From Microtetraspora fusca (GTDB lineage Bacteria; Actinomycetota; Actinomycetes; Streptosporangiales; Streptosporangiaceae), in assembly GCF_001570365.1 (NCBI RefSeq), contig NZ_BBYK01000048.1:62001-126000 (forward strand): a stretch of 64,000 nucleotides of DNA. Reading direction: 5' to 3'. Numbering within the stretch: the first letter of the stretch is position 1; each line of letters starts with the position of its first letter. The position numbers and the translations under genes are program-made. The notes under the pieces are model-generated. The model searched no databases. It saw nothing but the letters and a program-made list of their open reading frames with translations, and was not told the origin of the DNA. Below are positions 4,942 through 62,653 of this stretch, in pieces.

Positions 4942-6440
4942 GCCGACGGACGCCGGTCGTGACGTTGCTCCCTCTCGACGACCGGCCGGTGAACACCGGC
5001 CACGTCGCCGGGCTGGCCGGCATCGCCGGAACCCGGCTGCGCCTCCCCCCGGCCGAGCTCCTGCCTCCTCGAGGCGCGCCCGCGGACATGGACGGAACGG
5101 CCCGGTGGCTGGAGCGTTCGGCGGCCGACAGCGACGCCGTCGTCGTCAGCGTCAACCAGCTCGCCTACGGCGGGTTCGTCGCCTCCCGGCGCACCGCGGA
5201 GCCGCTGGCCCGGACGCTGGCCCGCCTCGACGTGCTCCGCCGGATCCGGGCCGAGCGGCCGGCGCTCGACGTCCACGCCTTCGTGACGCTGATGCGGACC
5301 AAGCGGTTCGACGGCGCCGGGGCCGAGCCGGAGTACTGGGACCGGTACGGCCGGCGGTTCTTCACCCTGTCCGGGGAGACCTACCGGGCCGAACACGGCC
5401 GGCCGAGCGCGGCGGAGCGGGCCCGGGCGGCGATACCCGCGCCGTACGTCGCGGACTTCTTCACCCGGCGGATGCGCCTGCACGCCATGCAGCTCGCCTG
5501 CGTCGAGCTGGTCATGGAAGGGGTCGTGGACACGCTGTCGATCCTCGTCGAGGACAGCACGGTCGAGAGCGTGTCCACCAGCGAGCGGGAGTGGCTGGAG
5601 AACTGGATCGACCGCCTCGGCGTGGGCGACCGGGTTCGCTGCTTTCCGGGCGCCGACGAGGGCGCCGCCGTGCTGACCACGCGGGCCGCGCTGGAGCACG
5701 CCGGACTGCGGCCGAGGGTGGCCGTCGTGTGCCTCGACCCGGACGCTCTCCGGCGGATCGCGCCGTACGAGGACGTGCCCGTCGGCGACACGGTCGCGGG
5801 CCAGGCCGCCGCCGTCGGCGCCGAGCTGGTCGACGACCCCGGCCGGGCCGATCTCGTGCTCGCCGTGCATCCGCCGGGGGTGCCGCCACGCGACTGGTGC
5901 GCCTGGCCGGACGTGCCGGAGCGGGCGGGCGACGACGCGGCGCGGCTCGCCGCGCGACTGCGCGACCAGGTGGACTCCGGGCGACTGGTCGCGGTGGCGG
6001 ACGTCGCCGACGCGAACGGCGCCGACCCCGCGCTGGTCATGGCGTTGCGCGACGCCGGACTCCTCCGGCGCCTCGCCGGTTACGCGGGGTGGAACACGGC
6101 CGGGAACACGATCGGCAGCGCGCTGGCCCAGGGATGCAGCCGGCTGCTCGCCGTCGACGACCGGCAACTGGTCGAGCACGCCCGGACCGTCACCCACCGC
6201 CTGGTGGATGATTGGGGGTATCAGACCTCGGCGCGGCGCGAGGTCCTCGCCGCGGAGACGGCCGACGGGGGCGACCGGATCGACCGGGTCACGCGGGAGC
6301 TGGAGGACCGCCTCGCGGAGCTCGGTCCGCCCGCCGATGATTTCCGCATCGTGCCAGGCAGCGTGTGCTTCCCATGGGATCGTCCCTTCGAGATCTCCTT
6401 TGAGCTGGGGCACCTCGAGGAAAGGAATGATCGCCTATGA
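4938..6440 (+). CDS. DUF4127 family protein
   Basis: A 500-residue cytoplasmic protein. The ATG at 4938 overlaps the permease stop (ATGA). Family hallmarks are visible: LPLDDRPVN near the N-terminus, the stretch ILVEDSTVESVST in the middle, and GWNTAGNTIGSALAQG in the C-terminal third. DUF4127 proteins have no established activity that I know of; the conserved Asp/Arg/Asn and Glu/Asp clusters suggest an enzyme, and here it is cotranscribed with a sugar importer, a LacI regulator and an FAD oxidoreductase, so it probably processes the imported carbohydrate. That role is inference. Confidence 0.88.
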   Translation: MSRRTPVVTLLPLDDRPVNTGHVAGLAGIAGTRLRLPPAELLPPRGAPADMDGTARWLERSAADSDAVVVSVNQLAYGGFVASRRTAEPLARTLARLDVLRRIRAERPALDVHAFVTLMRTKRFDGAGAEPEYWDRYGRRFFTLSGETYRAEHGRPSAAERARAAIPAPYVADFFTRRMRLHAMQLACVELVMEGVVDTLSILVEDSTVESVSTSEREWLENWIDRLGVGDRVRCFPGADEGAAVLTTRAALEHAGLRPRVAVVCLDPDALRRIAPYEDVPVGDTVAGQAAAVGAELVDDPGRADLVLAVHPPGVPPRDWCAWPDVPERAGDDAARLAARLRDQVDSGRLVAVADVADANGADPALVMALRDAGLLRRLAGYAGWNTAGNTIGSALAQGCSRLLAVDDRQLVEHARTVTHRLVDDWGYQTSARREVLAAETADGGDRIDRVTRELEDRLAELGPPADDFRIVPGSVCFPWDRPFEISFELGHLEERNDRL

Positions 6441-7492
6441 AGGACGTACAGCGACGCCGGCCTCGCCAGTCCGACATCGCCAAGCTGGCCGGCGTCTCGC
6501 AGACGACGGTCTCCATCGTGATCAACGGGAGGGAGTCGGACACGATCCGGATCCCCCCGGAGACGCGGCAGCGTGTCTTCGATGTGGCCCGGGCGCTGGG
6601 ATACGTCGCCGATCCGGTGGCGCGCAGCCTCGCCGGCGGCATGAACCACCTGGTCGGCGTCTACACGTTCGAGTCGATGTTCCCGATGGACCAGCACGAC
6701 TTCTACTACCCGTTCCTGGTGGGCATCGAGGCCGCGGCCGAGGCGCTCGGCTACGACATGCTGATGTTCACCAGCGCCACCGGCTCCGACGGCGGCAGGT
6801 CGATCTACCGCGACGGCGTCAACCGGCTGCGGCTCGCCGACGGGTGCGTGCTGCTCGGCAAGGAGACCAACCGGGACGACATCGCCAGGTTGCGGGACGA
6901 GGGGTTCAGGTTCACGCTGATCGGCCGTCGTGACGTGTCCGGCCCGATCACGTACGTCACCGCGGACTACGCGACCGCCACGGAGGAGGTCGTCGACCAC
7001 CTGGTGGAGCTCGGGCACGAGCGCATCGCCTACCTGACGGCGGCGGATCCGAGCGAACCCACCGCCGACCGCGACGCCGGGTTCTGGGCCGCCCGAGACC
7101 GGCACGGGCTCGACACCGGCGGGCTCGTCCTGCCGGTCCGCAAGGAGGCGGGACCGACGGCCGACGAGGTTCGGCGGCTGCTGGGAGCCGGGGCCACCGC
7201 GTTCGTCGCCCACGAGTCGGTGGTCGCCCTCCGGCTGCTCGACCTCCTCCGCGACATGGGCGTCGACGTGCCCGGCGCGTGCTCGGTGGCCGCGCTCAAC
7301 GACCCGCCGGACGCCGTACCGGGTCCGGAGCTCACCTGCTTCCGCATACCGCGGCGGGAGATGGGGACGCGCGCGGTCGAGTTGCTGGTCGAGCAGCTCG
7401 AATCGGAAGCGGAGGTCGAGCCGCGGGCGGTCGCGCTGCCGTGCACTTTCGTCGCTGGACAGACCAGCGGCCCGAATCGAAAGGGATCATGA
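6437..7492 (+). CDS. LacI-family transcriptional regulator
   Basis: A 351-residue repressor. Residues about 8-60 contain the LacI helix-turn-helix and hinge (SDIAKLAGVSQTTVSIVING, then a short acidic loop and ARSLAGG), followed by a periplasmic-binding-protein-like ligand domain. The ATG overlaps the DUF4127 stop (ATGA), with AAAGGA ten bases upstream. Encoded inside the operon it should control, it is the obvious candidate to bind the three 18-bp palindromes at 1638-1754. The effector is likely the imported sugar or a derivative. Confidence 0.93.
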   Translation: MKDVQRRRPRQSDIAKLAGVSQTTVSIVINGRESDTIRIPPETRQRVFDVARALGYVADPVARSLAGGMNHLVGVYTFESMFPMDQHDFYYPFLVGIEAAAEALGYDMLMFTSATGSDGGRSIYRDGVNRLRLADGCVLLGKETNRDDIARLRDEGFRFTLIGRRDVSGPITYVTADYATATEEVVDHLVELGHERIAYLTAADPSEPTADRDAGFWAARDRHGLDTGGLVLPVRKEAGPTADEVRRLLGAGATAFVAHESVVALRLLDLLRDMGVDVPGACSVAALNDPPDAVPGPELTCFRIPRREMGTRAVELLVEQLESEAEVEPRAVALPCTFVAGQTSGPNRKGS

Positions 7493-9103
7493 GTGACAGA
7501 GTTCCGCGCAGACGTGCTGGTGGCCGGCGGAGGGCTCGGCGGCATCGCGGCCGCACTGGCCGCGGCCGCGAACGGAGCGCGCGTCGTGCTCACCGAGGAG
7601 ACGGCCTGGCTGGGCGGGCAGCTGACGACGCAGCTCGTCCCGCCCGACGAACACCCCTGGATCGAGTCCTTCGGAAGCACGGCGGGCTACCGGCGTCTGC
7701 GGAACGGAATCCGTGAGTACTACCGGCGCTGGTATCCGCTGCGATCCGCGTCGAGGTCGCTCGCGCACCTGAACCCCGGCGCGGGCCGGGTCGGCCCGCT
7801 GTGCCACGAGCCTCGCGTGGCACTGGCGGTGATCGAGGCCATGCTCGCGCCCTGGCAGGCCGCCGGGCGGATCGTCGTGCTGCGCCGGCACGTCCCGACC
7901 GCCGCCCAGGTCGACGGCGACCACGTGCGAGCGGTGACCTTCCACGACCTGGAGGCCGGGCGCGACGTGACCGTCGCGGCGACGTTCGTCCTCGACGCCA
8001 CGGAGACCGGGGGCCTGCTGCCGATCACCGGAACCGAGTTCGTGACCGGCGCCGAATCGCAGGCCGACACGGGCGAGCCGCACGCCGCGGCGACCGCGCA
8101 GCCGTCGAACATGCAGGCGGTGTCCGTGTGCTTCGCGCTCTCGCATCACGCCGGGGAGAACCACACGATCGACAAGCCCGACGACTACGCGTCGTGGCGG
8201 GATCTGGCGCCCGAGTGGTGGCACGGCCCCCAGTTCGGATGGGTCGCCCCTCACCCGCACACCCTGGAGCCCCGGCGCTACGCCTTCACCCCGAACCCGG
8301 ACGACGACCCGACCGCCATCGTCGCCGACCAGAGCAAGGATCCGGGGTCGGACGAACTGTGGTCGTTCCGGCGGATCCTGGCCAGGAACCACTTCCGGCC
8401 GGGCATGGTCGACAGCGACGTCACCATCGTGAACTGGCCGATGATCGACTACCTGGGCGGGCCGGTCATCGGCGGAACGGCGGAGCAGGACGCGACGCAC
8501 ACCGCGGCCGCGCGGGCGCAGAGCCTGAGCTTCCTCTACTGGCTGCAGACCGAGGCGCCCCGGCCCGACGGCGGCAGCGGCTGGCCCGGCCTGCGGCTGC
8601 GCCCCGACGTCACCGGCACGGCCGACGGCCTGGCGATGCGTCCGTACATCAGGGAATCGCGGCGGATCCGCGGGCAGTACCGGATCGTCGAGCAGGATCT
8701 CGCGGTGGCCGTCCGCCCCGAGGGCGCGGCGACCTACGACGACAGCGTCGGCGTCGGCGCGTACCGGATCGACCTGCATCCTTCGACCGGCGGGGACAAC
8801 TACATCGACATCCCGGCCTGGCCGTTCCAGGTCCCGATGCGCGCCCTGGTCCCGGAACGCATGCGGAACGTGATCGCCGCGGGCAAGAACATCAGCACCA
8901 CGCACATCACCAACGGCTGTTACCGGGTCCATCCGGTCGAGTGGACCGTGGGTGAGGCCGCCGGCCACCTCGCGTCGTTCTGCGTGGCCCGCCGCACCGA
9001 GCCGCACCAGATCACGGCGACGCCGAGCCTCCGGGCCGAGGTCCAGGAATCGATGGCCAGGCACGGCATGGAGCTGAGCTGGCCGAACGTCACCTACTAC
9101 TGA
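7493..9103 (+). CDS. FAD-dependent oxidoreductase (FAD_oxidored type)
   Basis: A 536-residue flavoprotein. The GTG at 7493 begins one base after the LacI stop, with AAAGGG upstream. An N-terminal Rossmann dinucleotide motif (VLVAGGGLGGIAAALAAA) is followed by an acidic end of the second strand (VVLTEE). The C-terminus carries the conserved block NISTTHITNGCYRVHPVEW found in PF12831-type oxidoreductases that accompany carbohydrate loci. It has no signal peptide, so it acts in the cytoplasm, presumably oxidising the imported sugar or a product of the DUF4127 protein. The substrate cannot be deduced. Confidence 0.88.
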   Translation: MTEFRADVLVAGGGLGGIAAALAAAANGARVVLTEETAWLGGQLTTQLVPPDEHPWIESFGSTAGYRRLRNGIREYYRRWYPLRSASRSLAHLNPGAGRVGPLCHEPRVALAVIEAMLAPWQAAGRIVVLRRHVPTAAQVDGDHVRAVTFHDLEAGRDVTVAATFVLDATETGGLLPITGTEFVTGAESQADTGEPHAAATAQPSNMQAVSVCFALSHHAGENHTIDKPDDYASWRDLAPEWWHGPQFGWVAPHPHTLEPRRYAFTPNPDDDPTAIVADQSKDPGSDELWSFRRILARNHFRPGMVDSDVTIVNWPMIDYLGGPVIGGTAEQDATHTAAARAQSLSFLYWLQTEAPRPDGGSGWPGLRLRPDVTGTADGLAMRPYIRESRRIRGQYRIVEQDLAVAVRPEGAATYDDSVGVGAYRIDLHPSTGGDNYIDIPAWPFQVPMRALVPERMRNVIAAGKNISTTHITNGCYRVHPVEWTVGEAAGHLASFCVARRTEPHQITATPSLRAEVQESMARHGMELSWPNVTYY

Positions 9104-9117
9104 GGCGGGGTTCTCGA

Positions 9118-9783
9118 ATGCGTTTGCCCGAATCGCGGCTGGCCGTCCTGGTCAGCCTGCCGCGTAACGAGACCGCCCTCGCAGAGGCGGCGCGGCACGC
9201 GGGAGCCGACGGCCTGAAGGTGCACACGAACGTCCGGCACCGGGCCTCCGGGACGACCTTCGGGTCGCTGGACGACGAGTACGAGCGACTGCGCCCGATC
9301 CTCGCGCTCGGCGTTCCGACGGGCCTCGTCGTCGGCGCGGCGGGATCCGTGTCGACGACAGAGATGGTCGCGGCACACGACATGGGGTTCGACTACTTCG
9401 ACGTCTACGCCGCCGACGCGCCCGCTGACTACGTCGATGCGTGCGGACCGGTGGCGGCCATGGTGGCTCTGGGGCCGGGCGACGGTCCGTCCCAGGCCCG
9501 CGCTCTGGTGCGGCGAGGAGTCCGGGCACTCGAGCTTTCCACGCTCGAACCCGAGCGGTACGGCACGCCGTTGTCACTCGGGACCCTGGCGAGATTGGAA
9601 GCGGTGGCATCGGTGGTCGACGTGCCCGTCATCGTGCCGAGCCAGCACGCGCTGGAGCCGCGTGACCTCGCGCTCCTCCGGGAGGCGGGCGCGGCCGCGG
9701 TGCTGCTGGGCGCGGTGGTGACCGGCGCCGATCCGTCCACATTCGGTGCGCGGATCGCCCCGTACGTCGCCGCTGCCGCCTGA
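9118..9783 (+). CDS. Putative small TIM-barrel-like protein, last gene of the sugar operon
   Basis: A 221-residue protein with alternating beta-strand and helix patterns and glycine-rich turns (HAGADGLKVHTN, GVPTGLVVGAAGS, PVIVPSQHALEP, AGAAAVLLGAVVTG) that resemble small phosphate-binding (beta/alpha)8 barrels such as sugar-phosphate epimerases. The gene starts 14 bases after the oxidoreductase and ends the operon. I do not recognise a precise family; an epimerase or aldolase step in the same catabolic route is inference. A weak 6-bp hairpin (9803-9818) follows. Confidence 0.7.
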   Translation: MRLPESRLAVLVSLPRNETALAEAARHAGADGLKVHTNVRHRASGTTFGSLDDEYERLRPILALGVPTGLVVGAAGSVSTTEMVAAHDMGFDYFDVYAADAPADYVDACGPVAAMVALGPGDGPSQARALVRRGVRALELSTLEPERYGTPLSLGTLARLEAVASVVDVPVIVPSQHALEPRDLALLREAGAAAVLLGAVVTGADPSTFGARIAPYVAAAA

Positions 9784-9966
9784 GGCGAGTTCCAGCCGTT
9801 CTGCCGCCCCTCGGCGGCGCCGACCTTCGATCAGTTCCTCGGGCCCCTCAGCCATGCGGGCTTTGACGGAGTTTCATGCTGCGGCGCATGGCGGTGCTTG
9901 GACCGGACACTGGTCCGAGCACCGCTCGGTTTCCACGGGACCGCCTTCCGCCGGACGGCTCCGGGG

Positions 9967-53529: not shown

Positions 53530-53905
53530 CACTTCCTCTCCCCCTCGCAGGGGGCGGCATCAGGAAGCATACCCCAGGAGACCGTTCCGCACATCACGTT
53601 AAGTGACACCCGCGTGACTCGCCAGACCTGGCCTGGGCACCCAGGGGGGCCGACCATGTGACGAGTCTCCCGGCCGACCACCATGTGGTGACCATGATCG
53701 AGCTGGTCGATGACGCCTTCCCAGCCGTAGGCACGGCAGACCACCTCGTCGATCGCCCGGTGGACGCGGCGCAGCTCGCCGATGTCCTCGTCCTGGCATG
53801 TTGGCCAGGCTGTACGTCGAGGTCAGGCCGACCTTGTGGACGAGCATGAGCCCCCGCCAATACGCGTCGAGACGGGCGTCCGGCGCGTCCCGTGGTCGGG
53901 TCAGG
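53529..53905 (-). pseudogene. 3' fragment of a DNA methyltransferase (Eco57I/BREX PglX-like), frameshifted
   Basis: The minus strand from 53905 reads RDAPDARLDAYWRGLMLVHK, then VGLTSTYSLANMP, and after a frame change near 53800 QDEDIGELRRVHRAIDEVVC, RAYGWEGVIDQLDHG, GRETRHMVG. This recalls the conserved C-terminal block of large type IIG/BREX-like DNA methyltransferases (LTxTYN, D..I..LR..H..ID..V...YGW). The catalytic domain is absent. It ends at the stop of the antibiotic monooxygenase gene, so only the tail remains. Confidence 0.6.
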
Positions 53906-54194
53906 GGGTGAGCGGTTCGTACGCGGTGACCTCCCGGGAGGCGAGGCGGGCGAGGCAGTCGCCGACGACGTACTTCTGGAAGTGCTCGGAGGCCCGGTGC
54001 GCCTCGAAGGCGGCGGCGTCGACGTACCGTTCGTAGATCATGAACCGCCGGGGGTCGTCGGCGGAGACGTGGGCCTCGTAGCCGAGGTTGCCCGGCTCCG
54101 CGCGGGACAGCGGGGTCATGGTCCGGATGATGTCGGCGACGGCGTTCTCCTCGCCGTCACGCGCGGTCCAGACGGCGATCACGACGTAAGTCAT
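53901..54194 (-). CDS. ABM-domain (antibiotic biosynthesis monooxygenase) protein
   Basis: A 97-residue dimeric alpha+beta barrel protein. Typical features are VVIAVWTARDGEENAVADII, then EPGNLGYEAHVSADDPRRFM and the family block IYERYVDAAAFEAHRASEHF, as in YgiN-type quinol monooxygenases. It stands alone between the methyltransferase fragment and the glycerol operon. A housekeeping quinone or oxygenase role is likely; no catalytic residue assignment is possible. Confidence 0.88.
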   Translation of the reverse strand: MTYVVIAVWTARDGEENAVADIIRTMTPLSRAEPGNLGYEAHVSADDPRRFMIYERYVDAAAFEAHRASEHFQKYVVGDCLARLASREVTAYEPLTP

Positions 54195-54246
54195 GACGGG
54201 GGACTTTAGGGTGAATGTCCATAAATGTCACGCCCGCCCCTGGTGC

Positions 54247-54276
54247 TTGACACATCGAACGGCTTGGGAATAACGT
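54247..54276 (+). promoter_or_regulatory. Promoter of the glycerol-type operon
   Basis: TTGACA (54247-54252) is perfect; TAACGT (54271-54276) is a TANNNT -10 with 18-bp spacing (an alternative is AATAAC at 16 bp). Transcription would begin near 54283 and give a 106-base leader that contains the terminator at 54292-54337. Confidence 0.65.
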
Positions 54277-54291
54277 CCCGTCAACCGACAG

Positions 54292-54337
54292 GCACAGACG
54301 AAGACATCCCTGTCAGTGGTCTTCGTCTGTGCTTTTT
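54292..54337 (+). terminator. Leader terminator/attenuator, probable GlpP target
   Basis: Perfect 14-bp arms GCACAGACGAAGAC (54292-54305) and GTCTTCGTCTGTGC (54319-54332) with a 13-base loop are followed directly by TTTTT (54333-54337). This is an intrinsic terminator, rare in this genome, sitting between the promoter and the first gene, so it would stop most transcripts unless prevented. A competing pairing GACAGG (54287-54292) with CCTGTC (54309-54314) could form an antiterminator fold. A GlpP-type antiterminator is the last gene of the operon. Confidence 0.85.
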
Positions 54338-54388
54338 GTCGTTCCCGGACCGCTGGCAAGGGACTCACCCCCCGAAAGGCGGCTGGGC

Positions 54389-55825
54389 ATGAACGACGGC
54401 CCTGCGAACACGAGAGCGACGGTCATCCGCAACGCGGGAGACGTGGCCGCCCTCATCGACACCCTCAAGAGCCTGAGCGCACGGGCGAACTGGATCTGGT
54501 TCCTCGCCCTGGCGGGCCTGTTCCTGGACGCCTATTCCAACGCGGCGCTGGGGGCCGGCCTGTCCCCCATGGTCAAGCAGCTCGGCCTCTCCCCCACCGA
54601 GGTCGGCGTGCTCACCGCGATGGCCCCGGCGATCGCGATCATCTCCAACCCCTTCGGCGGCTGGCTGGCCGCGCGCATCGGCCGGATCAGGCCGCTGATG
54701 ATGACGAAGGTCGTCTTCGCCGTCGGCGCGCTGCTGACCGCGGCCGGTTCCGACTTCCAGACGGTCTTCGCCGGGCGGGCCCTGGTCGGCATCGCGTACG
54801 GCATCGACTTCGCCGTGGCGATGGCGCTGCTCGCCGAGTACACCCCCGCCTCGCTCAAGGGCCGGCTCAACTTCTGGCAGGGCGTCTGGTACACCGCGAC
54901 GACCACCAACCTCCTGCTCACGCTGCTGTTCTACAAGTTCGACGTCGGCGCCGACATCTGGCGCTGGTCCGTCGGCTCGTCGGCCGCGTTCGCGCTCATC
55001 CTGCTCGTGCTGCAGCTGACGTTCCTGGTGGAGAGCCCCACCTGGCTGGCCTCCAAGGGCAGGCTGCCGGAGGCGGCGGCGAACCTGCGCCGGATGTACG
55101 GCTTCGCCGTGGAGGAGGGCACCCGGGAGGCCGGGCAGGCGGACACGCCCGCGCGTCAGGTCGGGTTCCGGGACGCGGGCGTGCTCTTCCGCCAGCCGTA
55201 CCTGCCCAGGACCGTGCTGTCGACCGTCATCTCCCTCACCCAGGCCATGCAGTACTTCGCCGTGGGCTGGTACCTGCCGGTGATCAGCCTCGAACTGTTC
55301 GGCGCCGAGTTCGAGAAGGCCACGCTGGGCTCCATGGCGTTCAACGCCGTCGGCATCGTCGGCGGCTGCCTGTCGGCCTATGTCGGCCGCCGGATCGGCC
55401 TGCGGGTCGGCTCGATGGCCGGGTACGTCCTGGTGTTCGTCGCCCTGCTGGTGATGGGGGCGACGTTCAAGCAGCTGCCCGTCGCTCTGGCCGCGCTGCT
55501 GCCCGTGGTGTTCATCTTCTCCCACTCGGCCGGCCCCGGCCCCAACGGCAAGTCGATCGCGGCGCTGTCGTACCGCAGCGACATCCGCACCCTCGGCACC
55601 GGCGTGACCGGCATGCTCGGCAGCCTCGGATCGGTCGCGGGCCTGTACCTGTTCCCGCAGCTCCAGGCGGGCATCGGCGTGGGCAACAGCCTGATGGCCC
55701 TGTCGGTGGTGCCGCTGATCGGCCTGCTGACCTGCCTCGCCGTCAAGTGGGACCCGACCCGCGTGACGGTGAACCTCGAAGAGGAGGCGATCCGCCTCCA
55801 GGAGCGCACGCCGGTGTCGGCCTGA
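54389..55825 (+). CDS. MFS transporter of the glycerol-type operon
   Basis: A 478-residue sugar-porter-like permease with 12 helices. The ATG at 54389 has AAAGGCGG upstream. Family features include the segment GGWLAARIGRIRPLMMTKVV, the helix 4-5 block RALVGIAYGIDFAVAMALLA with AEYTPASLKGR, and the SPTWLASKGRLPEAAANLRR loop of the central domain. It is first of five genes and probably imports glycerol, a polyol or a glyceryl compound for the kinase that follows. Substrate not provable from sequence. Confidence 0.92.
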   Translation: MNDGPANTRATVIRNAGDVAALIDTLKSLSARANWIWFLALAGLFLDAYSNAALGAGLSPMVKQLGLSPTEVGVLTAMAPAIAIISNPFGGWLAARIGRIRPLMMTKVVFAVGALLTAAGSDFQTVFAGRALVGIAYGIDFAVAMALLAEYTPASLKGRLNFWQGVWYTATTTNLLLTLLFYKFDVGADIWRWSVGSSAAFALILLVLQLTFLVESPTWLASKGRLPEAAANLRRMYGFAVEEGTREAGQADTPARQVGFRDAGVLFRQPYLPRTVLSTVISLTQAMQYFAVGWYLPVISLELFGAEFEKATLGSMAFNAVGIVGGCLSAYVGRRIGLRVGSMAGYVLVFVALLVMGATFKQLPVALAALLPVVFIFSHSAGPGPNGKSIAALSYRSDIRTLGTGVTGMLGSLGSVAGLYLFPQLQAGIGVGNSLMALSVVPLIGLLTCLAVKWDPTRVTVNLEEEAIRLQERTPVSA

Positions 55826-55864
55826 ACGGTGTCCGGCCCGGACACGACGAAAGGACCTTCGCGG

Positions 55865-57445
55865 ATGACCAGGGAACGCCGCCGCGGCGTACTCAGCATC
55901 GATGAGGGCACCACGGGGACCCGTGCCGCCGTCGTCCTCGACGACGGCGGCGCGGCTCCCGCCGCGTACCTGCCCATCTCGGTCCGCTCGCGCGACCACC
56001 TGCTCGTGGAGCAGGACGGCACGGAGATCTGGGTGAACACCGTCCAGGTCTGCCGTGAAGCGCTGGACCGGGCGGCGGCCGACGGGGTGGAGATCACCGG
56101 AGTGTCGATCTCGACGCAGCGCGCCACGGTCCTGTTGTGGGACACGGTGACGGGGACGCCGCTGAGCCAGGCCGTCGTGTGGCAGGACCGCCGGTACGCC
56201 TCGCGGCTGCGGGAGTGGGAGCCGGAGTGGGACGCCCACCTCATCGAGCACACCGGCCGCCCGGTCGGCTCCCGGGCGCCGCTGCTGTGGGCGGCGGAGG
56301 AGATCGCCGCGAACGAGGCCGCCCGCCGCGCCCACGACCAGGGGAGGCTGGCCTTCGGCTCGATCGACACCTGGCTGGTCTGGAAGCTCACCGGCGGAGC
56401 CCGCCATGTCATGTCCGCCACCAACGCGGTCGCCCTCGGCGCGTACGACCTGCGGACCGGGGACTGGCACGAGCCGTGGGTGAAGTTCCTCGGCTGCCCG
56501 CGCGACGTGCTGCCTCAGATCGTGGACGAGGACGACGACTTCGGGTTCACCGACCCGGCGGTCCTCGGCGTGCGGCTGCCCGTCCTGTCCGTCATGGGCG
56601 ACCAGCACGCGGCGATGATCGCGCTCGGCGCGCACCGGCCCGGCCAGGCGACGTGCGTCCACGGGACCGGGACGTTCGTGGACGCCGTCGCGGGCGACCG
56701 GCCGCCCGCCCACCGCAGCCGGGTGCCCGGCGTGCTCACGCTGGTCGGCTGGCGCTCCCGGGGCGTTCCCGTCTTCAGCCTGGAGGGGTACGCCTCGACG
56801 ACCGGCTCCGCGATGCGCTGGCTGTGCGAGGAGATCGGGCTGTTCGAGTCGCCCGCGCGGCTCGCCCAGCTCGCCCGGGAGCACACCGGCCCGACCCGGG
56901 TGATGTTCCTGCCCGCGCTCGCGGGGCTGCGGACCCCCGTCTGGTCGCCGGAGGCCACCGGCCTCCTCACCGGGCTCAGCCTGTCGACGACCCGGGCGGA
57001 GCTGGCGCGCGGCATCCTCAACGGCTTCGCGCATTCGGTGTGCGACCTGCTCGAAGGCGTGGAGGAGGCCATGGGCCGGCCGGTCACCGAGCTGTTCTGC
57101 GGCGGCGGTCTCGCCACCAGCGACGTGCTGATGTCCAGCCAGGCGGACCTGCTCGGCCGGCCCGTACGACGGGCGCGCGACAACGAGAGCGCCAGCCTGC
57201 GCGGCGCCGCCTACCTCGGCGGCGTACGGGCCGGGCTGTGGCCGAGCGTCTCCGCCGCCGTCACCGGGCTCGCCGCGGCCCCCGTATTCGAACCGACCCT
57301 TTCCGACGCCGAGCGCCAGGAGGCCCGCGCCGAGTGGCGCGACCTGCTGGCCCGCCACGTCACCGTCGCCGCCCACGGCGCCCGGCCCCCCGCGCCGGAG
57401 CCCCGCGGCCCAGAACCCGATCCACAGGAGGAATCACCGTCGTGA
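55865..57445 (+). CDS. glpK: FGGY kinase, glycerol-kinase-like
   Basis: A 526-residue sugar kinase. The ATG at 55865 has AAAGGA upstream. GlpK-like blocks are SIDEGTTGTRAAVV (phosphate 1), AVVWQDRRYASRL, SIDTWLVWKLTGG and FSLEGYASTTGSAMRWL, with the C-terminal FGGY segment GLSLSTTRAELARGILNGFA. It should phosphorylate glycerol or a close polyol to the 3-phosphate, which the next gene oxidises. The symbol reflects the best family match; glycerol specificity is inferred from the GlpD neighbour and GlpP. Confidence 0.88.
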   Translation: MTRERRRGVLSIDEGTTGTRAAVVLDDGGAAPAAYLPISVRSRDHLLVEQDGTEIWVNTVQVCREALDRAAADGVEITGVSISTQRATVLLWDTVTGTPLSQAVVWQDRRYASRLREWEPEWDAHLIEHTGRPVGSRAPLLWAAEEIAANEAARRAHDQGRLAFGSIDTWLVWKLTGGARHVMSATNAVALGAYDLRTGDWHEPWVKFLGCPRDVLPQIVDEDDDFGFTDPAVLGVRLPVLSVMGDQHAAMIALGAHRPGQATCVHGTGTFVDAVAGDRPPAHRSRVPGVLTLVGWRSRGVPVFSLEGYASTTGSAMRWLCEEIGLFESPARLAQLAREHTGPTRVMFLPALAGLRTPVWSPEATGLLTGLSLSTTRAELARGILNGFAHSVCDLLEGVEEAMGRPVTELFCGGGLATSDVLMSSQADLLGRPVRRARDNESASLRGAAYLGGVRAGLWPSVSAAVTGLAAAPVFEPTLSDAERQEARAEWRDLLARHVTVAAHGARPPAPEPRGPEPDPQEESPS

Positions 57446-59124
57446 TCCGGCTTCCCGAACGTAAGGCGAGATCAGAGACGAAGAGCGCCATCCGGCGCAC
57501 CGCGCTGAGACTCGACCGCCAGGGGCAGATCGAACGGCTCGCCTCCCGGCCCGTGGACGTGCTCGTCGTCGGCGGCGGCGTGACCGGCTGTTACACGGCG
57601 CTGGACGCCGTCACCCGCGGCCTGACCGTGGCGCTCGTGGAGCGGGACGACTTCGCGTCGGGTACGTCCTCGAAGTCGTCCAAGATGGTGCACGGCGGAC
57701 TGCGCTACATCGAGCAGGGCAACCTGCCGCTGGTCCGGCGCTCGCTGCTCGAGCGGCAGCGGTTCCGCCGGAACGCGCCGCACCTCGTGCAGCGGCTGCC
57801 GTTCGTCTTCCCCGTGCTCGCGCAGGACGGCGTCTTCGACGCGCGCATCGCCACGGCCTTCGAGGGCCTGCTGTGGACCTACGACCTCGCCGGCGGATGG
57901 CGCATCGGCAGGCTCCACCAGCGCCTCACCGTGCCCGAGGTCCTCGCCCGGGCGCCCCGGCTGCGCGCCGACCAGCTCAAGGGCGGGCTGCTCTACTACG
58001 ACAGCCGCACGGACGACGCGCGCCTGACCCTGACCATCGCGCGGACCGCCGCCCACTTCGGGGCGACCGTGCTCAACGGCGCCGCGTGCCGCGGCCTCCT
58101 CCGCGAGGGCGGCAGGGTGCGCGGCGCCACCGTCGAGGTGGACGGCCGTGAGATCGAGGTGCGGGCGGGCGTCGTCATCAACGCCACCGGCGTCTGGTCC
58201 GACACACTCGACGCCATGTCCGACCCCGGCCACCGGCCCCGGATCCGCCCCGCGAAGGGCGTGCACATCGTGGTGCCCTGGACCCGGCTGCCCGTTGACG
58301 GCACCGTCACCGTGCCCGTCCCCGGCCGGGCCCGCCGCGCGACCTGCACCCGCTGGGGCGACGTGGTCGTGGTCGGGACGACCGACACGGACTACGACGG
58401 CTCCATGGACGAGGTGCTGTGCACCGCGTCGGAGATGCGCTACCTCCTCGACGGGGCCAACACCGCCTTCGACGCCGACCTCACCCCGGACGACGTGATC
58501 GGCTCGATCGCCGGGCTCCGCCCCCTGGTCAGCAGCAAGGACGGCAAGGAGGGCGCCACCCTCGACATGAGCCGCGACCACCGCGTCACCACCGACGCGT
58601 ACGGACTCGTCACCGTCACCGGCGGCAAGCTCACCACCAGCCGGCACATGGGCGAGCTCGTGGTCGACGAGGCGCTGAAGGTGCTCGGCCGCCGGGCGCG
58701 CTGCCGTACGGCGCACCTCCCCCTGCTGGGCGGGGCGGGCTACGACGCGGAGGCCACCTCCGCCACCGGAGGGCTCGGCGCGCACCTGGGCGGCCGGTAC
58801 GGCACCGAGGCCCGCTTCGTCGCCGACCTCTTCGCGGAGGACCCCTCCCTCATGGAGCCGATCGCCCCGGGCAGCGCCCACCTGCGGGCCGAGGTGGTCT
58901 ACGCGGCCCGGTGCGAGCTGGCGCGAAGCGTCGACGACGTGCTGTCCCGCCGCACCCGGATGCGGGTGTTCGCCCGCAACCTGTCGGTGCGCGCGGCCCC
59001 GGAGGTCGGCCGGCTGCTGCAGCGGGAGCTCGGCCTGTCCGACGACGAGGTTGCCCGGCAGATCGACGACTACGTCTCCGGCATCGAGCGCGAGAAGACC
59101 GTACTGATGGAGGAAGTTTCATGA
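57442..59124 (+). CDS. glpD: Glycerol-3-phosphate dehydrogenase, FAD-dependent (GlpD/GlpO)
   Basis: A 560-residue flavoprotein. The Rossmann motif VLVVGGGVTGCYTALDAVTR, the GlpD signature LVERDDFASGTSSKSSKM with VHGGLRYIEQGNLPLVRRSL, and the later TGGKLTTSRHMGE block are clear. The C-terminal helical DAO_C domain is full. The GTG start overlaps the kinase stop (GTGA) with AGGAGG upstream. It oxidises glycerol-3-phosphate to dihydroxyacetone phosphate at the membrane or with O2. It should lower the effector level sensed by GlpP. Confidence 0.93.
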   Translation: MIRLPERKARSETKSAIRRTALRLDRQGQIERLASRPVDVLVVGGGVTGCYTALDAVTRGLTVALVERDDFASGTSSKSSKMVHGGLRYIEQGNLPLVRRSLLERQRFRRNAPHLVQRLPFVFPVLAQDGVFDARIATAFEGLLWTYDLAGGWRIGRLHQRLTVPEVLARAPRLRADQLKGGLLYYDSRTDDARLTLTIARTAAHFGATVLNGAACRGLLREGGRVRGATVEVDGREIEVRAGVVINATGVWSDTLDAMSDPGHRPRIRPAKGVHIVVPWTRLPVDGTVTVPVPGRARRATCTRWGDVVVVGTTDTDYDGSMDEVLCTASEMRYLLDGANTAFDADLTPDDVIGSIAGLRPLVSSKDGKEGATLDMSRDHRVTTDAYGLVTVTGGKLTTSRHMGELVVDEALKVLGRRARCRTAHLPLLGGAGYDAEATSATGGLGAHLGGRYGTEARFVADLFAEDPSLMEPIAPGSAHLRAEVVYAARCELARSVDDVLSRRTRMRVFARNLSVRAAPEVGRLLQRELGLSDDEVARQIDDYVSGIEREKTVLMEEVS

Positions 59125-60683
59125 TCAGCAGGCAGACCGTCACCCATCCGTTCAACCGCGGCGACTACGTCGTCGGCGCGCCGACCCCGCCGCGGTGGGC
59201 CGCCGACTGCCCGCCGGGCCAGGGGAAGGCCAGCCTGCAGGGCCCGGTGGTCGAGGTTCCCGACGCGGTCGTCGCCGAGCTGCGCGCCGTCGCCGCCGCC
59301 GTGCACACCGACCGCGACGAGGTGATCCTGCGCACCCGCGACTGGTGGGCGGGCACCTCCATCGGGGAGACGGACGGCGATCCCGCCACGCCGGACGCCG
59401 TGATCGTCGAGGCGGCCGACGAGGAGCAGGTGGCGGCGGTGGTCCGCGTCTGCCACGCCCACGGCATCCCGCTGACCGTCTCGGCCGGGCGCAGCAACGT
59501 CCTCGGCGCGGCCCTGCCGGTGTTCGGCGGGGTCGTCCTCGACGTCTGCCGGCTCAACCGGATCATCTCGTTCGACGCCGAGTCGATGATCGTCGAAGTG
59601 CAGGCGGGCATGTTCGGCGACCTCTTCGAGAAGGAACTGCAGGAGGTCCACGGCGCCACCACCGGCCACTGGCCGTCCGCGTTCGCCATCTCGACGGTCG
59701 GCGGCTGGGCGGCGTGCCGCGGCGCCGGCCAGCTCTCCACCCGGTACGGGAAGATCGAGGACATGGTCGTCGGGCTCGACGTCGTCCTCCCGGACGGGAG
59801 CACGGCCGGCTACGGCACCTATCCCCGGGCGGCGGTCGGGCCGGATCTCCGCCAGCTCTTCATCGGCTCCGAGGGCACGCTGGGCGTGATCACCCGGCTG
59901 CGGCTGCGGACCCACCGGCTCCCGTCGTACGCCGTGGGGCTCGCGTACGGGTTCGACACCTTCGCCGTGGGGCTGGACGCCTGCCGGGAGATCCTCCAGC
60001 GCGGCACCACCCCGGCGGTGCTCCGCCTGTACGACGCGCACGAGAGCGGCACCCACTTCGGCGAGCCGGGCACCAACCTGCTGCTCATCGCCGACGAGGG
60101 GGACCCGGCGCTGGTGGACGCCACGATGGCCGTGGTCGAGGAGGTCTGCGCGGAGCGGGCGTCGGTGACGCTCGACGGCCAGGCCGCGCTCGCCCGCTGG
60201 CTGGACGAGCGGATGCTCGTCGGCAAGTCCGGCGACGGCTTCGCCAAGGGCCCCGGCTTCGTCGCGGACACCTGCGAGATCGCCGCCCCCTGGTCGTCCC
60301 TTTCGGCGATCTACGACGAAGTGGTCGCGGCCATCGAGGCGGTGCCGGGGACGCTGCGCGCCTCCGCCCACCAGTCGCACGCGTACACCGACGGCGCCTG
60401 CCTGTACTTCTCGCTGCGGGGCGACGTGGAGCGGGCCCGCCGCCGCGAGTGGCACCGGGCCGCGTGGGACGCCGCGAACGAGGTGCTCATCCGGCACGGC
60501 GCGGCGATCAGCCACCACCACGGCGTCGGCCTGCTGCGCTCGCCGTACATGGAGCGCTCGCTGGGCGACGGCTTCGCCACCCTGGTGGCGGTCAAGCAGG
60601 CACTCGACCCGGCCGGGATCATGAACCCCGGAAAGCTGGGACTGCCCAGCCGCTTCGGGGCCGGACCGCTCGAACAGCGCTAA
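59121..60683 (+). CDS. Alkylglycerone-phosphate-synthase-like FAD oxidase
   Basis: A 520-residue FAD_binding_4-type flavoenzyme. The PP-loop region (IPLTVSAGRSNVLGAALPVF, near residue 118), GHWPSAFAISTVGGWAACRG and GSEGTLGVITRLRLRTHRLP match the vanillyl-alcohol-oxidase family, and the C-terminal SHHHGVG is the His triplet characteristic of alkylglycerone-phosphate (alkyl-DHAP) synthases and their relatives. The ATG overlaps the GlpD stop (ATGA). It may convert a dihydroxyacetone-phosphate-like or ether-lipid-related compound, unusual in a glycerol operon. Confidence 0.88.
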   Translation: MISRQTVTHPFNRGDYVVGAPTPPRWAADCPPGQGKASLQGPVVEVPDAVVAELRAVAAAVHTDRDEVILRTRDWWAGTSIGETDGDPATPDAVIVEAADEEQVAAVVRVCHAHGIPLTVSAGRSNVLGAALPVFGGVVLDVCRLNRIISFDAESMIVEVQAGMFGDLFEKELQEVHGATTGHWPSAFAISTVGGWAACRGAGQLSTRYGKIEDMVVGLDVVLPDGSTAGYGTYPRAAVGPDLRQLFIGSEGTLGVITRLRLRTHRLPSYAVGLAYGFDTFAVGLDACREILQRGTTPAVLRLYDAHESGTHFGEPGTNLLLIADEGDPALVDATMAVVEEVCAERASVTLDGQAALARWLDERMLVGKSGDGFAKGPGFVADTCEIAAPWSSLSAIYDEVVAAIEAVPGTLRASAHQSHAYTDGACLYFSLRGDVERARRREWHRAAWDAANEVLIRHGAAISHHHGVGLLRSPYMERSLGDGFATLVAVKQALDPAGIMNPGKLGLPSRFGAGPLEQR

Positions 60684-60699
60684 CGAATAAGGTGGATCG

Positions 60700-61311
60700 G
60701 TGAACCTTCGTCCGAAACGTCCTGTTGATCGGCGGCTGCTGGCCGCGCTGGCGCAGCATCCGGTGATGGCATCGCTGGTCGGTGTCGAGATGGCGGACCG
60801 GTTCACCACGACCTCGACCCCGCTCGGCATCCTCGCCTCGGTCCCGCTCGGTGATCTGGAGGCGACGGTCCGGCGGACGGCCGCGGCCGGCAAGATCGTG
60901 TTCGTCAACATGGACTCGACGCCCGGCCTGGGCCACGACCCCGGCGCCCTGACCTACCTCAAGGGCATCGGGGCGGTCGGGATCTGCTCCACCCGAGCGG
61001 CGATCGTCGAGCGGGCAACCGGCCTGGGCCTGCTGGCCATGCAGAAGGTGTTCGTGACCGACCGCTCCAACCTGCACCGCAGCCTCCAGTCCGTCGCCCG
61101 GTCCCATCCGGACCTGGTCCAGCTCATGCCGGCGGTCGTGCTGCCCTACGTGGAACGGCAGGCCAAGGAGATGGGGGTGCCCTACCTGGCCGCCGGGTTC
61201 GTCCAGAGCCCGGCGGACGTGGTCGCGGCGCTCGGCCACGGCGCGGCCGGGGTCTGCACGTCGGACGAGGGGCTGTGGGAGCTGCGCCGGTCGGCCCTGC
61301 GCGCTTCCTGA
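60700..61311 (+). CDS. glpP: GlpP-type glycerol-3-phosphate-responsive antiterminator
   Basis: A 203-residue RNA-binding regulator of the GlpP family. Conserved blocks line up with Bacillus GlpP: VNMD (residues 69-72), GICSTRAAIV (94-103), AMQKVFVTDRSNL (113-125), QLMPAVV (141-147), AAGFVQSPADV (164-174) and TSDEGLWEL (187-195). The GTG at 60700 has AAGGTGG upstream. In Bacillus, GlpP with glycerol-3-phosphate prevents termination at leader hairpins of glpD/glpFK. Here the operon carries both the protein and a leader terminator (54292-54337), implying autoregulation by antitermination. This is inference from context and homology. Confidence 0.9.
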   Translation: MNLRPKRPVDRRLLAALAQHPVMASLVGVEMADRFTTTSTPLGILASVPLGDLEATVRRTAAAGKIVFVNMDSTPGLGHDPGALTYLKGIGAVGICSTRAAIVERATGLGLLAMQKVFVTDRSNLHRSLQSVARSHPDLVQLMPAVVLPYVERQAKEMGVPYLAAGFVQSPADVVAALGHGAAGVCTSDEGLWELRRSALRAS

Positions 61312-61540
61312 ACCCCCTCCCCGCCCGCCCCTGCCCGAGCACCACGGCCGCGCGGCCGACCGCCCCTCCGGCGCGTACGCGGGGCCGGTTCGGGCGACCT
61401 TGAGGCGTGCGCGGCGCCCTCCCGGCGGCGCACCCGCCCGATGGGGCTCCCCTCGGCTGGGGTCCCCCGATGGCGCTCGCCCCGTGGCGCGGCCCTCGTC
61501 GGCGCTCGCGTAGAGCCGCTCCGTATGGAAGGACGATTCG
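61312..61540. other. Intergenic region after the glycerol-type operon
   Basis: No convincing gene, terminator with T tract or operator was seen here. The stretch is GC-rich with imperfect self-complementary runs around 61440-61475. Confidence 0.4.
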
Positions 61541-62653
61541 TTGACACGGGTGACACCGGACCTGTCCGGCCCCCGGCCCGGTAGGCCGCCGCAGGTTCCC
61601 GGCGAGCCGCCCGGCCGGGCAGGCGGGCCGGGTGAGGCCGCGTCCGGTGAGATCGCACCGGGCGAGGTCACCTCCGAGATCACGCCCGGTGAGCTCGCGT
61701 CCGGCGCGGCGGCGCGGGCGGGCGGCGGCACACGCCTGATGGCGGTCGCGCCGCCCCTGTTCGTCGTGCTGTGGAGCAGCGCGTTCATCGCCGGCATCCC
61801 GGGGGTCAAGGCCGCTCCACCGCTGCTCCTGATGTTCGCGCGCTTCGCCCTGGCCGGAGCGCTGCTCAGCGCGTACGCGCTGGTCACCCGGGCGCCGTGG
61901 CCGCGCGGCCGGGCCCTGGCGCACATCGCCGTCACGGGCCTGCTGATCCAGGCCGTGCAGTTCGGCGCCTTCTACACCGCGCTCGGCATGGGCTTCCCCG
62001 CCGCCGTCGTCTCGCTCGTCCAGGGGCTCAACCCGGTCGTCGTCGTGCTGGCCTCCCGGTTCCTGGGTGAGACGGTCTCCCGGCGGCAGGCTCTCGGGTT
62101 CGTCCTCGGCGCGGCGGGCGTGGTCCTCGCGGTCGCCGACCGCGTGAGCCTCTCCGCCTGGGGCGTGGCGCTGTGCCTGGTCGGGCTGTCCGGGCTGAGC
62201 GCCGGCACCCTCTACCAGAAGCGTTTCGTCCCCGTCATGGACGTCCGCACCGGGACCGCCGTGCAACTGCTGGCCAGCGCCCCGGTGGTCGGGTTGGCGT
62301 GCGTCGCGCTGGAGACCCCGCGGGTGTCGGACTGGGCGGCCTTCGGCGGGTCGGTCGCCTGGATGGTCCTGGTGAACTCCATCGCGGCGTTCATCCTGCT
62401 CAACACGATGCTGCTCCGCTGGTCCGCCGGCCGGGTGAGCACCCTTTTCTTCCTGACCCCCTCGGTGACGGCGGTGATGGCCTGGCTGATCGCCGGACAG
62501 ACGTTGCACCCGCTCGCCGTCGCCGGGCTGGTCCTCGGCGCCGCCGGCGTCCTGCTCGCCAACCATCGGGCGTCCACGGACCAGCCGAACGGCCCCGTCC
62601 CCCGGCGTGGCGCCACCCAAGACATCCTGGAAACACCCGGAGAGGTGAAGTGA
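61541..62653 (+). CDS. DMT-family (EamA) exporter with long disordered N-terminus
   Basis: A 370-residue protein. TTG 61541 has AAGGA eight bases upstream. An N-terminal tail of about 65 residues is rich in Pro, Gly, Glu and carries repeated PGE/SGE steps; two EamA repeats with about ten helices follow (FVVLWSSAFIAGIPGVKAAP; PAAVVSLVQGLNPVVVVLAS; LFFLTPSVTAVMAWLIAGQT). The substrate is unknown (often amino acids or metabolites). The ATG of the alcohol dehydrogenase overlaps its stop (TGATG). Confidence 0.87.
   Translation: MTRVTPDLSGPRPGRPPQVPGEPPGRAGGPGEAASGEIAPGEVTSEITPGELASGAAARAGGGTRLMAVAPPLFVVLWSSAFIAGIPGVKAAPPLLLMFARFALAGALLSAYALVTRAPWPRGRALAHIAVTGLLIQAVQFGAFYTALGMGFPAAVVSLVQGLNPVVVVLASRFLGETVSRRQALGFVLGAAGVVLAVADRVSLSAWGVALCLVGLSGLSAGTLYQKRFVPVMDVRTGTAVQLLASAPVVGLACVALETPRVSDWAAFGGSVAWMVLVNSIAAFILLNTMLLRWSAGRVSTLFFLTPSVTAVMAWLIAGQTLHPLAVAGLVLGAAGVLLANHRASTDQPNGPVPRRGATQDILETPGEVK

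Follow-up and report, generated by a model that had tools for sequence, protein, structure and literature searches.

In antitermination of the LicT/SacY type (BglG family), a protein-stabilised RNA hairpin excludes the transcription terminator. This type is mentioned in the available text of PMC7430163, which, together with that of PMC9604022, describes the Bacillus model closest to the present case, namely GlpP antitermination of the glpD, glpFK and glpT leaders of Bacillus subtilis. For Streptomyces, the accessible part of PMC9732521 reports GylR-mediated control of the glycerol genes and names GlpP for B. subtilis only; Thermotoga GlpP is listed in the accessible part of PMC3750489, which says that its regulon had not been studied, and "GlpP" in the available portions of PMC11223650 and PMC13098282 denotes a permease and a primer. 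A title-level literature search, with most subscription journals and the original glpD leader papers lying outside it, showed nothing on the operon or the RNA element considered here among the titles listed, and no literature on the substrate of the operon was found. The locus lies in a 64,000-nucleotide stretch of the Microtetraspora fusca genome (contig NZ_BBYK01000048.1, positions 62,001 to 126,000; hereafter the window, whose own numbering is used) and consists of a five-gene operon ending in a gene for a GlpP family protein and preceded by a leader with a terminator hairpin. We propose, at a probability of roughly 0.7, that this leader acts as a conserved RNA switch under protein control, and that the GlpP specified by the final gene of the operon is the controlling protein. 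This would be a variant of GlpP control with an RNA element matched by no family of Rfam 15, the GlpP mechanism found in print being the Bacillus one.

As far as the B. subtilis system is described in the two sources above, the locus resembles it in combining a PF04309 protein with a conditional terminator between promoter and first gene. In B. subtilis, however, GlpP acts on separate glp transcripts, whereas here it closes the operon that it is proposed to control; other differences are a separate GlpP branch, an extra leader segment (d) and the occurrence of the element also without a T-run. Control of glycerol genes in an actinomycete is shared with the GylR system as outlined in its source, although the regulator (GylR) differs. 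A terminator excluded by a protein-stabilised hairpin would be common to this locus and LicT/SacY antitermination, but the protein is not of the BglG family, gene 5 of the operon matching PF04309 only. If the proposal is correct, a control system known from Bacillus would work, in changed form, in two further phyla, and about ninety naturally occurring variants, some of which have a terminator and some of which do not, would exemplify one RNA-binding sensor wired to either transcription or translation. The operon would also point to an uncharacterised polyol pathway, and the leader would represent an inducible element already working in GC-rich hosts.

The leader element and its conservation

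On the forward strand, the operon is preceded by a promoter-like sequence, TTGACA-N18-TAACGT (54247-54276, with TTGACA at 54247-54252 and TAACGT at 54271-54276). It is followed by a hairpin of 14 perfect pairs between segment b (54292-54305) and segment b' (54319-54332) and by five T residues (54333-54337), where transcripts are predicted to end. As in Bacillus-type GlpP-controlled leaders, an intrinsic terminator (54292-54337) is thereby located between the promoter and the first start codon. The region 54280-54345 folds at -31.5 kcal/mol (z -5.69), with none of 200 shuffles as good. Segment b, the 5' terminator arm, contains a conserved AGA..AGAC and is the putative GlpP site, while b', the 3' arm, was assigned from the fold, its upper stem covarying across lineages. 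Segments a (GACAGG, 54287-54292) and a' (CCTGTC, 54309-54314) are exact complements and partners in an alternative hairpin, as in the RNAalifold consensus of 29 elements. In addition, a' forms part of the partner of segment d (GACCGCTGGCAAGGG, 54348-54362), which is predicted to pair with 54308-54321 (duplex -27.2 kcal/mol in the window). A likely ribosome-binding site, AGGCGG (54377-54382), is indicated by its position and anti-Shine-Dalgarno match. The first-pass annotation of this DNA had placed the promoter, the 14-bp hairpin and the T5 ahead of the first start codon, and all of them lie exactly there; the alternative fold 54287-54292/54309-54314 that it suggested is also an exact pairing. 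Its description of the leader as two alternative folds was right about both folds but missed the third conserved pairing segment, d.

Of the 99 leaders examined for this operon, 98 share the element: CAG..AGA..AGAC on the 5' strand, CTG as its partner, and a hairpin overlapping this pairing. The 99 comprise 28 from the window and its relatives, all of which contain it, 68 from a GTDB-wide scan and three from plasmids, amounting to 92 distinct records (seven genomes occur twice). In the 98 leaders, the CAG core pairs with the CTG core within 5-8 pairs in total, and a second helix has at least 5 contiguous pairs, reaching at least 7 in 89. The complete type-2 configuration, that is, an a:a' hairpin, an AGA..AGA loop and an overlapping hairpin before a GlpP operon, is present in the window and in 97 of the 98 others; L191 fails the anchored search, and by eye TAGG replaces CAGG there. 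Upstream of the element, TTGAC-N16-19-TANNNT occurs in 68 of the 98. Counted among the leaders are those of L045 (internal deletion) and L124 (broken frames); the leader of L071 (Burkholderia arboris; operon present, MFS start unplaceable) was left out, as were those of L128, L135 and L180, which end before the MFS gene, and of L041 and L049, where GlpP has another context, while the leader of L070 lies on another contig (L118, element present) and is uncounted. Such recurrence, in all but one of the 99 leaders, takes the element beyond chance, and the leader is almost certainly a conserved cis-acting RNA. Conservation of the hairpin and alternative fold in relatives, chosen beforehand as the test of the idea, is thus borne out by these leaders and by the RNAalifold structure, which is a:a'.

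Pattern and model searches agree with this distribution. A loose pattern without a pairing condition matches 98 of the 99 leaders (L153 is missed) and a stricter one 96, and the loose pattern has no match on the plus strand of nine loci lacking GlpP; its overall frequency is 130 matches in 3.28 Mb on both strands, leaders included. Twenty elements from the window and its relatives served to build a covariance model; applied to 297 genomes of the order, it gave strong matches (at least 41.9 bits) in 29, all of which have a GlpP over the cut-off; in the same search, genome G122 was found to hold a second copy. Five GlpP-less genomes of the order gave weak matches of 23-31 bits, and the 31-bit match of G052 was dismissed as chance, being an ordinary intergenic terminator without an a/a' partner. 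In the genome of the window itself, the only strong copy is this leader (plus its reverse strand), the remaining five matches being weak (14.0-17.5 bits). A search of Rfam 15 with 53900-61600 to E 1 gave no family at gathering score and two sub-gathering chance matches, and eight other loci gave two matches, neither of them at a leader. A known Rfam family as the identity of the leader was rejected, with no leader match at gathering score in Rfam 15.

Covariation was assessed in an alignment of 29 hand-picked diverse elements from 30 listed (L130 omitted), in which MAFFT misplaces some 3' arms; L150, L153 and L191, which align badly, were never in the list. The CAG, AGA and AGA columns are invariant, and the a:a' hairpin alone is proposed by RNAalifold, with compensatory changes present. 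In this helix 87.4% of cells are paired, and its covariation of 0.285 compares with a shuffled mean of 0.166 (0 of 500 shuffles) and with 0.021-0.150 when the helix is slid. Columns 7 and 27, the inner pair, hold GC in 18 sequences; the 6 with AU are from Pseudomonadota. The upper terminator stem (b:b') is paired in 84.2% of cells and covaries at 0.302 against 0.200 in shuffles (0 of 500). Because a' joins the upper terminator stem in many lineages, the a:a' and terminator folds are mutually exclusive there.

The operon, its GlpP branch and the ligand

All five genes are encoded on the forward strand. They specify an MFS carrier of the sugar porter type (54389-55825, start ATG at 54389; Sugar_tr 1.8e-34, MFS_1 2.3e-30), a glycerol-kinase-like FGGY kinase (55865-57445; TIGR01311 342 bits, below the cut-off of 590) and a GlpD-like flavin adenine dinucleotide (FAD) dehydrogenase (57442-59124; DAO 1.8e-54, DAO_C 3.9e-24; NF008899 268 bits, below the cut-off of 360), followed by a GlcD/AGPS-like FAD-linked oxidase (59121-60683; FAD_binding_4 1.7e-33, FAD-oxidase_C 4e-34; best NCBIfam model glcD, 141 vs 568 bits) and GlpP (60700-61311; PF04309 3.2e-42), assigned to type 2, a branch of its own, by tree and residues. 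Genes 2 and 3, as well as genes 3 and 4, overlap by a few bases. A five-gene operon ending in a GlpP family protein had been claimed at first pass, and this holds: gene 5 scores 144 bits against PF04309 (cut-off 27), with residues 22-193 covering profile positions 1-173 of 173, and matches the PDB entries 3kts (E 4e-18) and 1vkf (E 3e-12), while no NCBIfam model matched it at E 0.001. It is the single PF04309 gene in the assembly. For gene 4, the FAD_binding_4 and FAD-oxidase_C domains of the suggested AGPS-like oxidase are present, but the name AGPS-like goes back to the earlier reader and was produced by no search.

When 34 GlpPs were placed in an unrooted tree, a branch with a support of 1.000 and a length of 0.98 divided the 24 encoded in such operons (type 2) from the 10 others (type 1); type 1 includes GlpPs of Firmicutes, Streptomyces clavuligerus and the genomes G065 and G175. 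Invariant K116, T120, R122 and F167 distinguish type 2, the corresponding residues of type 1 being R (10 of 10), I (9), S (9) and L (10). The type-1 glpP genes of G065, G175, S. clavuligerus, Enterococcus gilvus and E. raffinosus lie near a different element, a hairpin GTTACT-RGAGACCAGAGA-AGTAAC with a GAGA-rich loop that overlaps an intrinsic terminator; further type-1 genomes have neither exact motif, and the Listeria matches to the pattern contain two mismatches. A hairpin with such a loop, overlapping a terminator next to glpP, resembles the element of the window, but differs from it in sequence, GlpP branch and neighbouring genes. Since type-1 GlpPs adjoin another terminator-overlapping hairpin, GlpP branch and RNA type go together, as sampled. 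A further likeness to GlpP leaders is the purine-rich box at the foot of the terminator, which is seen as GAGA..GAGAG in the glpD leaders of Listeria and Paenibacillus (two of the three glpD leaders looked at); inspection of the plasmid glpD leader of E. gilvus found no such box. In the genome of the window, the type-1 box RGAGACCAGAGA has no exact match and, with 1-2 mismatches, 10 matches against 14 for a reversed control, so that a type-1 GlpP element was rejected there as no commoner than the control pattern.

These data bear on whether the operon is a plain glycerol operon sensing glycerol-3-phosphate as in Bacillus, an alternative that concerns the ligand and is compatible with the proposed switch. 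The kinase and dehydrogenase do resemble GlpK and GlpD, which is the part of the earlier label of a glycerol-type operon that stands, and the GlpP retains D72, G76, F118, D121, P144, G166 and W193. Both enzymes nevertheless remain below the curated cut-offs that GlpK and GlpD of a canonical glycerol operon exceed, whereas the genome has two more kinases that exceed the glycerol kinase cut-off, along with four further DAO_C dehydrogenases. Judged by these scores, a plain glycerol operon was rejected, and the operon is rather a paralogue of the glycerol genes; the type-2 differences at positions 116, 120, 122 and 167 and the lack of an exact type-1 match in this genome point in the same direction. 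Taken as a question of what is sensed, glycerol-3-phosphate appears a doubtful candidate, though not a far-fetched one. It need not be the ligand, since this GlpP forms part of a separate branch and further glycerol kinases are encoded in the genome.

Several side observations were also made. A cluster of GlpP, SDR and FAD-binding oxidoreductase genes (L078 9004-14170; L076 9016-16237) is common to megaplasmids of S. clavuligerus, where an FGGY kinase is added, and E. gilvus, with the type-1 element near glpP. Upstream of glpP in G175 (L049, ~5590-9850), a short repeat (PHVRGEH / THVGMA in both-strand translations) occurs in many copies and looks like a CRISPR array, as judged from translations with no repeat search run. 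Two PLSDB Listeria "plasmid" records (L200, L204) look wholly or partly chromosomal, one being 2.9 Mb long and the other containing recA and mutSL.

Proposed switch, segment d and output

According to the proposed mechanism, b would pair with b' (54292-54305 with 54319-54332) in the absence of ligand-bound GlpP, and in the window this hairpin with its T5 would halt transcription about 50 nucleotides ahead of the first gene. Upon accumulation of the sensed polyol phosphate, GlpP would bind the 5' strand CAGG..AGA..AGAC, most likely in the form of the a:a' hairpin displaying AGA..AGAC in its loop. With the terminator blocked, RNA polymerase would read through to the carrier, the enzymes and GlpP itself. 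The freed a'b' strand could also pair with d just upstream of the ribosome-binding site, and in leaders without a T-run, which include nearly all those of Pseudomonadota, this step would probably carry control via translation, Rho access or mRNA stability. On sequence grounds, the GlpP of the operon is in all likelihood the binder of the leader RNA, and antitermination with read-through is the probable outcome where a T-run exists. Ligand and role of d are what we infer, and the complete picture is correspondingly tentative: an autoregulated, GlpP-gated three-way switch responding to a polyol phosphate other than glycerol-3-phosphate, whose output is swapped from termination in Actinomycetota to translation, Rho access or stability via d in Pseudomonadota.

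Segment d is located about 23 nucleotides before the start codon, downstream of the terminator, and is complementary to the a'b' strand in most lineages. Compared with 300 shuffles, the best duplex falls in the top 5% for 45 of 53 representatives from 20 groups, the eight failures being three members of Actinomadura group B and one each of Saccharopolyspora, Arthrobacter, a Nocardiopsis-like group, Agrococcus and Citrobacter. Summed over 28 representatives, its energy is -558.9 kcal/mol versus -318.3 +/- 11.3 kcal/mol in shuffles (minimum of 100, -349.1). The distance from d to the start codon, in the 26 representatives with a start placed (by script, not by data), has a standard deviation of 3.6 nucleotides versus 12.9 in shuffles (minimum 7.6). 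Several positions of the duplex show at least three pair types. When tested against the d of other groups, p values are often unremarkable, which we attribute to related groups sharing d. As a predicted pairing, a'b':d is established. In RNA ending after d, it is missing from the free fold in 29 of 32 cases and formed in 30 of 32 once b is blocked; in full-length folds with b blocked, d is mostly paired elsewhere. The ribosome site of the window is partly paired in the predicted fold, not above shuffles (0.17 vs 0.25), and folding gave no proof that d frees it. Since d is transcribed only after the T-run, it cannot be what prevents termination at that point, and it may instead act on translation, Rho access or mRNA stability. 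A run of at least four T residues within 18-60 nucleotides after a' is present in 47 of 74 Actinomycetota leaders versus 1 of 24 in Pseudomonadota, the one being Citrobacter. Because the T-run is common in actinomycete leaders and rare in proteobacterial ones, the output may differ between the phyla, and simple antitermination is not the whole story in Pseudomonadota.

Several results weigh against the GlpP-controlled switch. In neither helix are pairs that changed on both sides more numerous than in shuffles, and the invariance of CAG and CTG proves little, since the anchored search required that core. GlpP occurs without the element in three genomes of the order (G065, G175 and the borderline G164), and the co-occurrence of element and GlpP cannot be separated from the presence of the operon, because loci that lack GlpP lack the MFS gene too. 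Segment d gives no signal in Citrobacter or in one group of Actinomadura. Once a and b are blocked in full-length RNA, only 15 of 32 cases retain a'b':d, and the ribosome site is buried more than in shuffles (p 0.05) in no more than 5 of 26, namely Nocardiopsis, one Arthrobacter, Brucella, one Paraburkholderia and Delftia. Fewer than four T residues follow the hairpin in nearly all Pseudomonadota leaders and also in 27 of the 74 Actinomycetota leaders.

The best surviving of the other mechanisms is one in which GlpP binds single-stranded b and blocks this terminator arm, with a:a' unneeded and d a by-product. It would suit both the location of the invariant AGA..AGA columns in b and the preference of d for other partners in full-length b-blocked folds, but appears unlikely in view of a covarying a:a' that is the sole RNAalifold structure over all lineages and of a d pairing far beyond shuffles in energy and position. 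Less probable still is a switch read by a directly bound small molecule or another RNA-binding protein, despite the riboswitch-like 5' strand with its invariant letters and three mutually exclusive pairings: the element is short and without an Rfam 15 match, the operon itself, wherever this could be observed, always encodes a GlpP of one branch, and the other branch has its own leader type. An unregulated hairpin, serving as a constitutive attenuator or mRNA stabiliser while GlpP acts elsewhere or nowhere, would fit the high stability of the hairpin alone but is very improbable, as the alternative pairings are kept with compensation, the sequence is conserved over two phyla, and the only strong copy in its own genome is this leader.

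Spread of the operon and neighbouring sequences

The gene order MFS–FGGY kinase–GlpD-like–AGPS-like–GlpP recurs in Actinomycetota and Pseudomonadota, together with the element, so that the operon is not the actinomycete peculiarity it had first been taken for. In samples of 150 genomes from the family, 297 from the order and 345 from the class, GlpP above the cut-off is encoded in 9, 32 and 2, respectively, and both of those in the class sample belong to the family of the window, one being its own genome. All five proteins are matched in order in 26 of 30 loci compared, including L053 (GlpD in pieces) and L069 (start unmatched); L070 is truncated by a contig end, and L041 and L049 hold GlpP in another context. 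Plasmid records searched at the protein level contain the operon as well, in Burkholderia arboris, Cupriavidus and Arthrobacter. When GTDB was scanned with part of gene 4, at least 546 relatives were obtained, of which the best 80 were kept. GlpP follows gene 4 in 71 of these best 80. The actinobacterial loci belong to Arthrobacter, Agrococcus, Agromyces, Brevibacterium, Leucobacter, Streptomyces, Embleya, Amycolatopsis, Saccharopolyspora, Nocardia, Nocardiopsis and the family of the window, and the proteobacterial ones to Brucella/Ochrobactrum, Aureimonas, Tardiphaga, Citrobacter, Paraburkholderia, Burkholderia, Cupriavidus, Variovorax, Achromobacter, Delftia and Mycetohabitans. GlpP and MFS were both not found in 9 of the 80 (L137, L192-L199), and the absence of GlpP means little in L192, L194 and L197, because these contigs end within 350 nucleotides after gene 4.

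Some loci show rearranged or additional features. In G041 (L045 9026-10477), an intact leader precedes an internally deleted operon consisting of the MFS start, the end of gene 4 and GlpP. The second copy in G122 (L115 ~5990-6310, contig C28) comprises a promoter and leader element, the first MFS codons and then a zinc alcohol dehydrogenase gene, and is apparently a duplicate operon that lost its middle. In Brucella tritici, the Rfam small RNA ar35 (L122 10231-10375) lies just 3' of the GlpP operon. In the window, a small gene of the antibiotic biosynthesis monooxygenase (ABM) domain type (53901-54194, reverse strand) is situated about 195 nucleotides upstream of the first start codon of the operon, and since it is divergent, the leader hairpin is not its terminator. 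Directly downstream of the operon are genes for an EamA carrier and a zinc-alcohol-dehydrogenase-like protein, the latter similar to that in L115.

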